Below are positions 12,201 to 61,784 of a stretch of 64,000 bases of DNA, in pieces (positions within the stretch are counted from its first letter, which is position 1; every line of letters starts with the position of its first letter). The DNA is from Turneriella parva DSM 21527 (GTDB lineage Bacteria > Spirochaetota > Leptospiria > Turneriellales > Turneriellaceae): positions 124,001 to 188,000 of the forward strand of contig NC_018020.1 of the NCBI RefSeq assembly GCF_000266885.1, in the 5' to 3' direction. The position numbers and the translations under genes are program-made. The notes under the pieces are model-generated. The model was not told where the DNA came from, ran no database searches, and saw only the letters and a list, made by a program, of their open reading frames with translations.

Positions 12201-12524
12201 TTGAACCCTGCCCCCCACCCCATCGTTCTGCTGACGGCATTACCCGATCTGGCAGCGGCAGAAAAAATGGCGGATGCAATTGTCAGCGCGAAGCTTGCTG
12301 CGTGCGTGAATATTTTTCCCGACATGCGTTCTGTATATTTTTGGGAAAACAAGATCGTACGCGAGAACGAGGTAAAGTTATTCGTTAAAACCTCGTCGGC
12401 AGTCGCCCCCGAGGCGATAGCATTCATTAAAGCTGGACATCCTTATTCTGTGCCTGAAATCACGACCATACACGCCGACATGCATGGCGAATACTGGGTG
12501 TGGCTTCAGGGTTACGTTGGCTAG
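12201..12524 (+). CDS. cutA: CutA-like divalent ion tolerance protein
   Basis: A 107-residue protein of the small trimeric CutA1 family. Visible family features are the initial strand IVLLTALPDLAAAEKMAD, LAACVNIFPDMRSVYFWENKI near residues 33-52, the ENEVKLFVKTSS strand, and HPYSVPEITTIHAD near the end. CutA was linked genetically to copper tolerance, but its biochemical role is still not settled. The start is uncertain: I used TTG at 12201, which gives the normal length, but there is no strong ribosome site. The TAG stop is the first base triplet of a large structured repeat. Confidence 0.9.
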   Translation: MNPAPHPIVLLTALPDLAAAEKMADAIVSAKLAACVNIFPDMRSVYFWENKIVRENEVKLFVKTSSAVAPEAIAFIKAGHPYSVPEITTIHADMHGEYWVWLQGYVG

Positions 12525-12684
12525 CAGGCTCCGGAAAAACTCCCGCAAAAGCGAAAAGCCTCGTCATTTGCGTGCGCAAACGACTGCTAAAGCGCGACGT
12601 CGCTTGCCAGCAAGCGACTATGCTGCTTTTCGCTTTTGCGGTTCCGGATGCCTGCTAACAGGTTCCTTTTTCAGGAACCTGCTA
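12522..12684 (-). repeat. Structured intergenic repeat, copy 1 (cutA / 12682 gene)
   Basis: Read on the minus strand, this 163-bp element starts at the TAG of the 12682-13800 gene. It forms an outer hairpin (CAGGTTCC...GGAACCTG), then a branched structure: stem P1 (AGCAGGC...GCCTGCT with CCGGAA...TTCCGG), a perfect 17-bp P2 (CCGCAAAAGCGAAAAGC and its complement), and two inner hairpins, P3 (GTCGCTTG...CAAGCGAC) and P4 (GTCGTTTGCG...CGCAAATGAC). The far end is the TAG of cutA. A homologous copy with the same order of parts occurs at 50015-50191. The outer hairpin may serve as a terminator. Confidence 0.85.
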
Positions 12685-48520: not shown

Positions 48521-50017
48521 ATGCGTAAGTTCAGTTTTTTCGTATTATTGTCTCTTATGGCGCTCGCTACACACTGCGGCAAATCGCGCACCTCAGAGAA
48601 GCTGACCCGCACCGAAGTTGCGCAGCCGCTGAAGTTTCCCAAAGGCTTTTTGTGGGGCACTGCGACGGCTGCCGAGCAGCTTGAGGCAACGACCGCAAGC
48701 GACTGGGCAGAACTGATTCGCAAGAGTTACGCAGGCGAAGGCAAGGCCGTTGCAGGCGCTGCGATCAAAGACCTGCATCTCTGGTCTGCCGACGTCATCA
48801 CAAAAAAAACCGCGCACAACGAGAAGCTCGCAGAAGACGTGGCGCTCATGAAAGAGATGGGCAACAACGCCTACCGCTTCTCGATCGCTTGGGATAAACT
48901 TTTCCCCAAAGCTGAAACAACAGAGCCCGATGCGGCTGCCGTTGCATTCTATGACAAACTTTTTGCGGAGCTCAAACGTAACGGTATTGAACCCTCTGTG
49001 ACACTCTTTCACTTCAGTTCGCCGCAATGGTTTTTCGCCGAAAAAGACGGCAAGCGTGGCTGGGAAAGAGCTGACGCACTCGAACATTTCGGCCGCTTCG
49101 TCACATTCGTCGTTAATCGCTGGGGTAAAGACGTGCGCGTCTGGACAACGCTCAACGAGCCGATGGTCTACATCTATTCGGGTTATATGCAGGGCATATT
49201 TCCCCCGATGGAGAAACGGCCAAACGAAAAAGCCGTCGCGCCCGTCATGCAGTCGCTTCTGAAAGCGCACGCGCTGGCCTACAAAATCATTAAGGTTTTC
49301 TCGACCAAGAACGGCGTCAAGGCTTCGGTGGGAGTCACGCAACACACCCGCGAGTTTGCGCCCTACAGAAACTATGCGCTGCTCGACCGCATTATTGCGG
49401 GCAAAGTCGAGCAGGCCTTCATCTGGGATTTCACCGATGCTATCCAGACGGGTGTGTTGAAGGTAACAAATACCGATATTGAAGAGACCATCGCAGATCT
49501 GAAAGGCACGCAAGACTTTATCGGCGTCAATTATTACGGCAGATTTTACATTAAATCGAATATTTTTTCTCCAACAAAGTTTGAAGTCAAGAACCATGAC
49601 GAAAGCGACGAGAGCGAAATAAAAAATGAACTCGGTTGGGCAGATTATCCGATTGGCATGAAGACAATTCTGCTCACGGCAAATAACAAATATAAGCTGC
49701 CCCTTTATATTCTTGAATCGGGCACAGCTGAGGCGAAGCACGACGACATACTCAGGCAACGCCTGATTACCACACACCTCGCCGAGACCGCAGCCGCAAT
49801 CGAGGCAGGCGCCGATGTGCGCGGTTACTTTCACTGGTCGCTGATCGACAACTTTGAATGGGCCGAAGGTTACGATGCGCGTTTCGGCCTCGTCGAAACC
49901 GATTATAAGAACGGCTTCGCGCGAAAAAAGCGCAAGAGCTTCGACACGTATAAGCGCATCATAGAAACGGGGATTTCACCTGACGCGTACCGCGAAGCAG
50001 CAAAACCCTACCATTAG
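48521..50017 (+). CDS. Glycoside hydrolase family 1 lipoprotein (beta-glucosidase-like)
   Basis: A 498-residue protein with a signal ending ALATHC (Cys 19), so a likely lipoprotein, whereas most GH1 enzymes are cytoplasmic. The GH1 fold is clear: FPKGFLWGTATAAEQLE, the acid/base Glu in WTTLNEPMVY (near 213), and the nucleophile Glu in LPLYILESGTAE (near 399) where GH1 usually has TENG, then YFHWSLIDNFEWAEGYDARF. The changed nucleophile loop suggests an unusual substrate. The TAG stop starts a structured repeat. Confidence 0.9.
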   Translation: MRKFSFFVLLSLMALATHCGKSRTSEKLTRTEVAQPLKFPKGFLWGTATAAEQLEATTASDWAELIRKSYAGEGKAVAGAAIKDLHLWSADVITKKTAHNEKLAEDVALMKEMGNNAYRFSIAWDKLFPKAETTEPDAAAVAFYDKLFAELKRNGIEPSVTLFHFSSPQWFFAEKDGKRGWERADALEHFGRFVTFVVNRWGKDVRVWTTLNEPMVYIYSGYMQGIFPPMEKRPNEKAVAPVMQSLLKAHALAYKIIKVFSTKNGVKASVGVTQHTREFAPYRNYALLDRIIAGKVEQAFIWDFTDAIQTGVLKVTNTDIEETIADLKGTQDFIGVNYYGRFYIKSNIFSPTKFEVKNHDESDESEIKNELGWADYPIGMKTILLTANNKYKLPLYILESGTAEAKHDDILRQRLITTHLAETAAAIEAGADVRGYFHWSLIDNFEWAEGYDARFGLVETDYKNGFARKKRKSFDTYKRIIETGISPDAYREAAKPYH

Positions 50018-50191
50018 CAGTTCCCTTAAAAAGGAAACTGCCAGCAGGCTCTGGAAACCGAAAAAGCGAAAAGCAGCTAAGTCGCTTAGCGACGACGCGC
50101 TTTAGCAGTCGTTTGTAGAGCGGTTTCATAGAAACCGCTCTACAAACGACGAGGCTTTTTGCTTTTTCGGGGGTATTTCCAGAGCCTGCAT
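50015..50191 (+). repeat. Structured intergenic repeat, copy 2 (GH1 / murB)
   Basis: The homologue of 12522-12684, here on the plus strand and starting at the GH1 TAG. Same parts in the same order: outer hairpin (50018-50042), P1 with CTCTGGAAA/TTTCCAGAG in place of CCGGAA/TTCCGG, P2 (GAAAAAGCGAAAAGC with GCTTTTTGCTTTTTC), a shortened P3 (GTCGC-TTA-GCGAC) and P4. P4 is extended to 20 bp by an extra palindrome that starts TGTAG and ends CTACA (50114-50144). The element ends just before the murB stop. Confidence 0.85.
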
Positions 50192-59830: not shown

Positions 59831-59849
59831 TTGCCCGAGCGGTTGTTTT

Positions 59850-61784
59850 TCAAGAACCTGTTAGCAGACCTTCAAGCCGTTTGACGGCCCGATTTTCAGG
59901 GTCAAAAGCCTGCGCTTTCTTGAATAGCAATGCTGCCTTGTCTTTTTTTTCCAGGCGGCGATAGATATCAGAGAGATTCACGATGCCATGAAAACTCATC
60001 GGTTCGCGCAGAATCAACCTTTCGCCATAATCGGCCGCACGCTTCAGCAGGCTCTTGTCGCCGTTCGCGCAATACTTCAATGCCCGCGAAGTCAGGTAGA
60101 TCATGCCGAGATCTGACGGGTCATAGTTGCAATACTCTTCGCCCAGAGCTGCTGCTTTGGCGAAGTGCTTCAACCGCGAATTCAGAAGCGCTAGTTCATA
60201 AACGATTTTGGGGTCATGCGGATTTTCAGCGTACAGCTTATCGAGCTCTTGCGCAGCCCCCTCGTAATCTTTGTTCTGCGCATAACGCCGAATCACCGAA
60301 AGATCTGATTTCGTGATGGGTTCATGGCCTGTGCCGTCGTACGTAATGCGAATCAGCGACAGGTCATCGGTTATATCGCCGCGCTCTTGCAGCTGGCGGC
60401 GAATTTCGTGCAGATCGCCATTCGCTTTTTCGATGGTACGCAAAAACAGCGTTTCATCAGAATTAATCATCGAGTTGCCCATTTCGTCGCGCCCCATCGA
60501 GATGTCGTCGCGACCGTCTGAACCAGCAAAGATCACATCACCCTGCTGCAGGCGGTACGTCTTCACTCTGAACAGCTCTTCGTTTTCGGGCATTCCCAGT
60601 TTTCTGAGCGTCATTTCTTCTTCAATAAAAGACGCTTCGCCGTTTCGCAGCACGACGATCCACGGGTGCTCAGCGTTAATGTAATACAGCAAACCGCTGT
60701 CTTCGTCGATCAGCCCAATCACGGCTGAAACCAGCATGCGGCCGTCAAAAGAGATCATCACATGGTCTAATTCTTCGTAGCAATCGCGCAGCCACTGCTC
60801 GGGAAATACAAAGCGGCTCATCTCATCGTTTTGCGTACGGTGCAAGAACGACTTAAAGACCGTGCCGAGCACCAGGGCGCCACCTGCCCCCTGAATCGAC
60901 TTGCCCATCGCATCACCGTTCATAAAGGCAACATAACGTTTGTTGCGCAGAATCACGCTGTTCGACGAGCTGATGTCGCCGCCGATTTCAGAATGCCATT
61001 GCCTGAACTGAAACTTCTTCTTCTGTTCGGTCAAAAACTCGACGCGAATTCGCGATGGCACGGCCTCGTTGAGCGCCAGGGGATGCAGCAGCTGCGAAGT
61101 GAGAAAATAATCGCCGTCTTGCTGGGTCTTGAGTTCGTTGATGCGCTTGATCTGGGCTTCAATTTCAATATTTTTGAGTTCAATTTTTTTCGTTTTCATA
61201 AACGACCCGAAACGAATGCGGTCGAGCATAAAAGAAAACGAGATTGCGATCACATATGATATGAGCAGGTTGTTCATCGAATACGCGGCCGCTGGGGTAG
61301 AGAGATTTGGTTTGTGAACGAGCACCGAAATCACGAAAGTCAGAATCGAGATGGTCTCGAGCGCCAGAAAAAGCCGAAACGCGACAGGCGTTGCAATCGG
61401 TATCATCACCACAATCTGCAGGCCCGAAACATAGTTCGGGTCGTCTGCGATGCGCCCGGTGAAGAATGAGGTAGCGACAATGACATAACCAATGAGCAAC
61501 TTGATCGAGAGCGCCCCAAACCTGCTGAGCTGCGGTATAAACGTCGCCAAAAAGACCAGAATCGCAATGCCCGTCAGCCCTAAACGAAAATACAGCAGCT
61601 CGGGAAATTCAGGGTGCAGCTTCTTATCGGTATTAAAGGCAAAATCGAGCCAGGCAAAAATGGCGATCGCCGAACCAATGCGCACAAAGCCATTCAGCTG
61701 CCGATCCATATCGGCGACAAACTCTTGCCGGTACTGTATTCTGTCTGGGTTCTTACGGAAGAGGTTCCGTAGCCTGCTCATCAT
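59850..61784 (-). CDS. Membrane SpoIIE-type serine phosphatase with TPR tail
   Basis: A 644-residue protein. About six membrane helices lie at residues 30-200, a short coiled coil near 200-220, then a PP2C/SpoIIE domain: FRQWHSEIGGDISSS, AFMNGDAMGKSIQGAGGALV, YINAEHPWIVVLRNGE, DVIFAGSDGRDDIS and DITDDLSLIRI (metal-binding Asp positions). Residues 500-640 carry TPR-like helices. Such proteins dephosphorylate STAS antagonists in partner switching. The last codons (LLTGS) and stop are encoded by a sequence resembling the edge of the structured repeat. Confidence 0.88.
   Translation of the reverse strand: MMSRLRNLFRKNPDRIQYRQEFVADMDRQLNGFVRIGSAIAIFAWLDFAFNTDKKLHPEFPELLYFRLGLTGIAILVFLATFIPQLSRFGALSIKLLIGYVIVATSFFTGRIADDPNYVSGLQIVVMIPIATPVAFRLFLALETISILTFVISVLVHKPNLSTPAAAYSMNNLLISYVIAISFSFMLDRIRFGSFMKTKKIELKNIEIEAQIKRINELKTQQDGDYFLTSQLLHPLALNEAVPSRIRVEFLTEQKKKFQFRQWHSEIGGDISSSNSVILRNKRYVAFMNGDAMGKSIQGAGGALVLGTVFKSFLHRTQNDEMSRFVFPEQWLRDCYEELDHVMISFDGRMLVSAVIGLIDEDSGLLYYINAEHPWIVVLRNGEASFIEEEMTLRKLGMPENEELFRVKTYRLQQGDVIFAGSDGRDDISMGRDEMGNSMINSDETLFLRTIEKANGDLHEIRRQLQERGDITDDLSLIRITYDGTGHEPITKSDLSVIRRYAQNKDYEGAAQELDKLYAENPHDPKIVYELALLNSRLKHFAKAAALGEEYCNYDPSDLGMIYLTSRALKYCANGDKSLLKRAADYGERLILREPMSFHGIVNLSDIYRRLEKKDKAALLFKKAQAFDPENRAVKRLEGLLTGS

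Follow-up and report, generated by a model that had tools for sequence, protein, structure and literature searches.

A mobile palindromic repeat family of Turneriella whose copies share a three-way junction fold

Introduction

Two distant stretches of the 64,000-nt window analysed here, from Turneriella parva DSM 21527, fold alike, and each starts on the stop codon of one gene and faces a second, convergent gene. Such a repeat may be an RNA structure under selection, or a palindrome that moves and enters at stop codons. The original prediction offered these two options and was largely right, in that both are supported. We propose that the two copies probably belong to a genus-restricted, non-autonomous mobile family with a fold-conserved, strand-selected three-way junction, moved in trans.

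Two copies of a branched repeat in the window

Both copies were located, at 12522 and 50015, the second in the opposite orientation to the first. BLAST of the T. parva genome with copy 1 as the query returned 67 pieces, with copy 2 at E = 4.3e-26, a likeness far beyond chance. In both, a long basal stem leads to a junction that carries hairpins, and an outer hairpin lies on one side. The P1 pairs, which had been said to change together, do differ between them: TCCGGA/TCCGGA in copy 1 versus CTCTGGAAA/TTTCCAGAG in copy 2. The TAG of a CutA-like gene (12522-12524) forms the first bases of copy 1, which closes on the minus-strand stop (12682-12684) of a convergent gene of 372 aa; the first bases of copy 2 are the TAG of a GH1-like gene (50015-50017), and a MurB-like gene lies opposite. 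Both therefore begin on an upstream TAG and face a convergent gene, as described before. The features are as follows, in window coordinates.

12522..12684, minus strand (the putative folded strand, on which mismatches read as G-U): copy 1, whole element; each end falls on the stop codon of one of the convergent genes
12524..12559, plus strand: copy 1, outer arm of P1, with its partner at 12625-12655 and an unpaired AAAAACTC bulge inside; assigned from folds and covariation across copies
12560..12562, plus strand: copy 1, near-invariant junction linker CTC (GAG on the putative folded strand)
12563..12584, plus strand: copy 1, hairpin P2, GTCATTTGC..GCAAACGAC; one A.C pair, which is G-U on the minus strand
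12585..12594, plus strand: copy 1, near-invariant junction segment TGCTAAAGCG (CGCTTTAGCA on the putative folded strand)
12595..12624, plus strand: copy 1, hairpin P3 region, from the fold
12625..12655, plus strand: copy 1, 3' arm of P1, from fold and covariation
12656..12684, minus strand: copy 1, outer hairpin TAACAGGTTCC..GGAACCTGCTA, which forms one inverted-repeat terminus of the element and overlaps the stop codon of the convergent gene
50015..50189, plus strand: copy 2, whole element, in the opposite orientation to copy 1; the putative folded strand is the plus strand of the window
50015..50043, plus strand: copy 2, outer hairpin, starting on the TAG of the GH1-like gene
50044..50189, plus strand: copy 2, P1 with three-way junction, long P2 (GTCGTTTGTAGAGCGGTTTC..) and P3, from the fold
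59846..59863, minus strand: isolated, core-less sequence TAACAGGTTCTTGAAAAA, resembling a terminal hairpin end

A family with a common fold

Using a covariance model, we obtained 72 matches in the T. parva genome at E ≤ 1; at E ≤ 1e-4, with echoes on the opposite strand discounted, there are about 50 distinct places, so the pair in the window has further copies. The elements are about 160-210 bp long, occur in multiple copies and hold no transposase gene. In a search of 48 genomes of the class, mostly drafts as far as the relatives are concerned, the family was present in seven of seven Turneriella genomes and in one genome of a sister genus, and in no other. When 247 Spirochaetota genomes were scanned with a looser pattern, seven matched, namely six Turneriella and the same sister-genus genome, and a reversed control pattern gave one match in the same set; no copy was found in the 239 Spirochaetota genomes outside the eight that have the family. 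Pattern matches in named contigs were confined to Spirochaetota. Ten further matches, in viral contigs, were taken as chance because all ten lack a complementary P2. The available part of the T. parva DSM 21527 genome paper reports no such repeat (PMC3746428), and the literature on Turneriella small RNAs yielded nothing relevant.

The fold is the same in all long copies: P1 is a long basal stem, in which an asymmetric bulge is frequent, and it leads to a three-way junction with a hairpin P2 of about nine pairs and a hairpin P3 of variable length; T. parva copies have a one-sided outer hairpin as well. On the copy-1 strand the core reads RGC-CTC-P2-TGCTAAAGCG-P3-CT-GCY. The junction linkers (CTC and TGCTAAAGCG) are 92-100% conserved, a figure inflated for TGCTAAAGCG by the anchor search, which permitted two changes in it, and less so by the model search, while many P1 positions are only 45-70% conserved.

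Small self-cleaving ribozymes have an anatomy of this type, in which a three-way junction combines free arms with unpaired segments that are short and near-invariant, and the junction might be such a motif, or another catalytic RNA, carried on a mobile element. We consider this very improbable. The hammerhead core is CUGANGA/GAAA, and it is absent from the linkers; Rfam gave no match at gathering in the window and no family even at E ≤ 1 for five loci.

Pairing is kept while the stem sequences turn over

We compared 68 distinct copies in an alignment whose figures lean towards structure, since it was fitted to the covariance model and the copies are related to one another: standard pairs fill 94.8% of cells, double-sided changes occur at 31 of 38 pairs, 491 cells hold double changes against 114 ± 11 after shuffling, and shifting the partners by one column lowers the paired cells from 95% to 40-43%. 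A model-free anchor count gave 91% paired against 65% shuffled for P1 (59 distinct arms) and 94% against 67% for P2 (52 distinct arms). Stem sequences thus turn over almost completely between copies yet remain complementary, and across the further copies stems are kept far more often than broken. One site is shared between T. parva (L125) and a relative (L080), with flanks about 70% identical. Here all three stems have changed and still pair, and the junction is retained although every stem differs; independent re-insertion at the same spot could also have produced this pattern.

The putative folding strand

To read the strand from the irregular pairs, we counted stem mismatches as distinct events on the copy-1 strand. 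There were 66 A.C versus 27 G.T, in a count made after an alignment that scored all mismatches equally and with a p value (6e-5) that is optimistic, the copies being kin. A narrower count gave 38 A.C versus 9 G.T, and G046, the closest relative of T. parva, showed no strand bias (8 vs 7). Because A.C becomes G.U on the other strand, the folding strand would be the minus strand of the window at copy 1 and its plus strand at copy 2. The original prediction had the irregular pairs turn into G-U on the strand of the upstream gene. This holds for copy 2, including the one exception it named, whereas in copy 1 the wobble is A.C on the strand of the upstream CutA-like gene and G-U on that of the convergent gene. 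Mutation bias is an unlikely cause of the asymmetry, since transitions in young subfamilies are balanced (56 vs 48; 38 vs 34 in stems and 18 vs 14 elsewhere).

Template switching during replication is known to produce matched changes in inverted repeats, and the element could be a purely selfish DNA palindrome whose imperfect arms are corrected in this way, with no selection on a folded strand. Such a palindrome would agree with the mobility of the element, its decay by deletion and the fact that single sites can do without it, all described below. However, equal numbers of G.T and A.C per strand would then be expected, in place of the skew above, and the near-invariant unpaired linkers would be left unexplained. 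We therefore think this origin unlikely. The wobble bias points to selection acting on a folded single strand. The test separates such a strand from a DNA cruciform and treats RNA and ssDNA alike; the folded strand is probably RNA. Paired changes in many more copies, together with the strand-biased wobble, thus bear out a selected structure, which would be the RNA structure first suggested.

Ends, target duplications and empty sites

Near-identical bursts are present in the relatives, with nine copies in G047 and groups of four to five in G044, and the exact ends can be read from them, e.g. GGGCGCGGGATTTGTTGGGGGG...CCCCCTAACAAATCCCGCGCCC. Terminal inverted repeats measure 22 bp in G047 and 20+ bp in G044, with related ends of 18 bp in T. 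parva; some subfamily ends, mainly those of older T. parva copies, are placed only to within a few bases. About ten young copies have perfect 8-9 bp target duplications (CCTATCGA, ACGGTTGC, CTGGATAG, CAGCAACC, ACCGCCGC, ATAACTAT, TGCAAAAG, GGGGTCGAG, CTAAGTGGT and TTCGATAAG); in others the duplication is imperfect or none was seen.

Sites were compared between T. parva and G046 in both directions. Copies of G046 were absent from the T. parva site in five cases and left as remnants in two. T. parva copies were absent from G046 at five sites, that of copy 1 included, present as remnants at two (L111 and L113) and common to both genomes at two (L101 and L107). Sites that are empty or hold remnants in both directions show that the element is mobile and that deletion removes old copies. 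The family has the features of miniature inverted-repeat transposable elements (MITEs) that were looked for, i.e. terminal inverted repeats, target duplications, short length, lack of a transposase and multiple copies.

Three elements in G044 (L329, L331 and L334) are 71-74 bp long, have the same inverted repeats and no core, and look like deletion derivatives that have moved; L329 has a perfect 8-bp target duplication. Because core-less 74-bp derivatives carry target duplications, the conserved core is dispensable for the movement of that subfamily. The reverse course, in which the core inserted into the tips of existing palindromes, was considered and rejected, as L331 keeps part of a P1 arm, which speaks for deletion instead; the segment by which L331 and L159 differ is flanked by GTTGC repeats, which fits deletion as well.

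Both the ends and the target duplications (8-9 bp vs TA) differ between subfamilies, so one mechanism may not serve them all. It is possible, and we put it forward tentatively, that the element is defined by its folded RNA core rather than by its end sequences: the junction would function as an RNA to which a factor of the host or of transposition binds, and would ride on more than one transposition system. The persistence of the junction across subfamilies with differing inverted repeats and target duplications might be understood in this way.

Stop codons and gene context

In T. parva and G046 the main subfamily has ends that read TA-R-CAGG, and exact coincidence with a stop codon was observed at 23 element ends in these two genomes. 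Where a gene stop lies within three bases of an end, the stop (TAA, TAG or TGA) uses the first element base at 6/6 left and 17/20 right ends. Abutting stops are commoner at the right end, which bears the outer hairpin (20/38 vs 6/27 on the left, p = 0.02), and the folded strand would thus lie downstream of the abutting gene. Comparison of an empty with a filled site (L074/L255) shows GGTTAATATTATT becoming GGTTA[GCAGG..CCTGC]TAGGATTATT, and a minus-strand stop likewise holds its place in the empty/filled comparison at L106 and L098. The stop codon predates the insertion, since empty sites already have it. These alignments suggest that the element may insert at the TA of a stop codon and, with a purine as its first base, restore the stop; the TA duplication itself is seen at one clean empty site of the main T. 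parva subfamily, and many left ends have no TA.

Convergent genes flank 19 of about 43 T. parva copies. In G047, young copies are mostly found between divergent genes. The gene-end position is therefore likely to reflect survival as much as target choice, and stop-codon insertion is no family-wide rule. The second option of the original prediction, a mobile palindrome that inserts at stop codons, stands as far as terminal inverted repeats, target duplications, empty sites and stop coincidence in many T. parva copies go, and fails as a general rule.

The same context could be read in terms of a resident cis-acting RNA that works for the host wherever it lies and spreads only now and then, such as a 3' UTR element, a terminator or an mRNA stabiliser. 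The gene 3'-end position in T. parva, the convergent settings, the overlap with stops and the orientation bias all agree with this, as does the orthologous site (L125/L080) that was kept across species while its stems diverged. Yet most of the sites compared are empty or hold a remnant in the sister species, young G047 copies have a mainly divergent setting, and the many different neighbours speak against a shared regulatory target. We think a resident RNA of this kind unlikely and retain the mobile family with a strand-selected fold.

Transposase search

We looked for a partner transposase or an autonomous copy at PF13358, PF12762, PF00872 and PF01797 loci, the relatives being mostly draft genomes, and found none with matching ends. 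One empty site is compatible with a TA duplication, as expected of MITEs of the IS630 type (Correia/RUP-like); the IS630 family (PF13358) is absent from four Turneriella genomes. IS1595 (PF12762) is present in T. parva and was rejected as a partner, its ends differing from those of the element. IS256 (PF00872) was also rejected, as the fragments found in the relatives have non-matching ends. Searches for larger copies around single matches to the terminal inverted repeats gave ordinary genes only and no transposase gene.

The IS1595-like transposase family of T. parva occupies 11 places (L343-L359), includes several near-identical pairs, and has ends unrelated to the element. T. parva also has three Y1 transposase genes (Y1_Tnp; C1:4295927, 24872 and 1284493, L152-L154). 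Each is flanked by its own perfect palindrome, of the GGGTTTAAACCC or CCGAATTAATTCGG type, and these form a separate small-element system.

GTAG/CGTC REPs and REPINs, which are associated with RAYTs, are dispersed palindromes whose termini give neighbouring ORFs TAG stops and which occur as hairpin singlets and doublets (PMC3733652). The Turneriella elements resemble them in being dispersed palindromes with stop-supplying ends; small hairpins that share these ends are scattered singly and in pairs, and the three Y1 genes could provide an enzyme for moving palindromes as single strands. In contrast to REPs, the Turneriella elements are much larger and branched, and no RAYT was found for them. 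The palindromes at the Y1 loci are unrelated to theirs, their ends read (Y)TAR or GGGYGCG with no one-sided GTAG tag and no CGTC tag, such as marks one end of the 20-40 bp REP palindrome, and perfect 8-9 bp target duplications are unexpected for Y1 transposition. Movement by a REP/RAYT-type system was therefore rejected as highly unlikely.

Proposed mechanism and relation to known repeats

According to the mechanism that we favour, the element would be a double-stranded insertion with terminal inverted repeats, moved by a transposase acting in trans. Insertion would generate 8-9 bp duplications in several subfamilies and would probably target the stop-codon TA in the main T. parva subfamily, where a first element base of A or G could restore TAA or TAG. 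The transcribed strand (minus at copy 1, plus at copy 2) would fold into the three-way junction, with near-invariant linkers that a factor may recognise and with arms free to vary while pairing holds. Selection on the folded single strand would keep the pairing during sequence turnover; this strand is most likely RNA, made as the 3' end of the transcript of the gene whose stop is overlapped, and may act there. Entry at a stop codon that is then restored would be harmless in a gene-dense genome.

We class the Turneriella elements as a new MITE-like family of the YPAL/ERIC/REP kind. YPAL (RU-2), the Yersinia palindromic sequence, is about 168 bp long, mobile and transcribed next to gene ends (PMC2229807). 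It resembles the Turneriella elements in its similar length, palindromic nature, filled and empty sites and target duplications, yet has internal inverted repeats and duplications of 3-26 bp (PMC2229807), whereas in Turneriella the inverted repeats are terminal, the target sites are 8-9 bp (or TA), and a conserved three-way junction carries arms that vary fully. No sequence relation between the two was seen, pattern matches lying in Spirochaetota contigs only. ERIC/IRU and Correia (NEMIS) are likewise short, MITE-like intergenic repeats, and their folded transcripts can affect mRNA stability (PMC2229807). In the Turneriella family, unlike in these, the junction alone is common to the copies and the terminal inverted repeats vary in sequence by subfamily. 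A single consensus runs along the whole element within each of the ERIC/IRU and Correia families.

Bacterial short mobile repeats are usually recognised by a shared sequence, whereas the Turneriella family shares a fold; methods based on shared sequence would group only part of its copies, and Rfam has no entry for it. One structure is represented by about 100 natural variants in a sequenced organism that can be cultured and in its relatives, enough for asking directly whether bacterial MITEs carry a working RNA.

Variants of the core

Two elements, L140 (T. parva 267474-267603) and L370 (G046:C306), have a similar extra helix, CCAATAGGTCG..GACC..TTGGT..CGA, in the TGC|TAAAGCG linker, and the core therefore has a larger, modular version. 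Four T. parva copies (L112, L120, L119 and L141) have one or two small hairpins (CTCCGAAGCGGAG and ACCCG..CGGGT) in place of the CTC linker, a second type of modular insert. Isolated hairpins resembling the one at 59846-59863 of the window are present elsewhere in the T. parva genome (L314 and L317).
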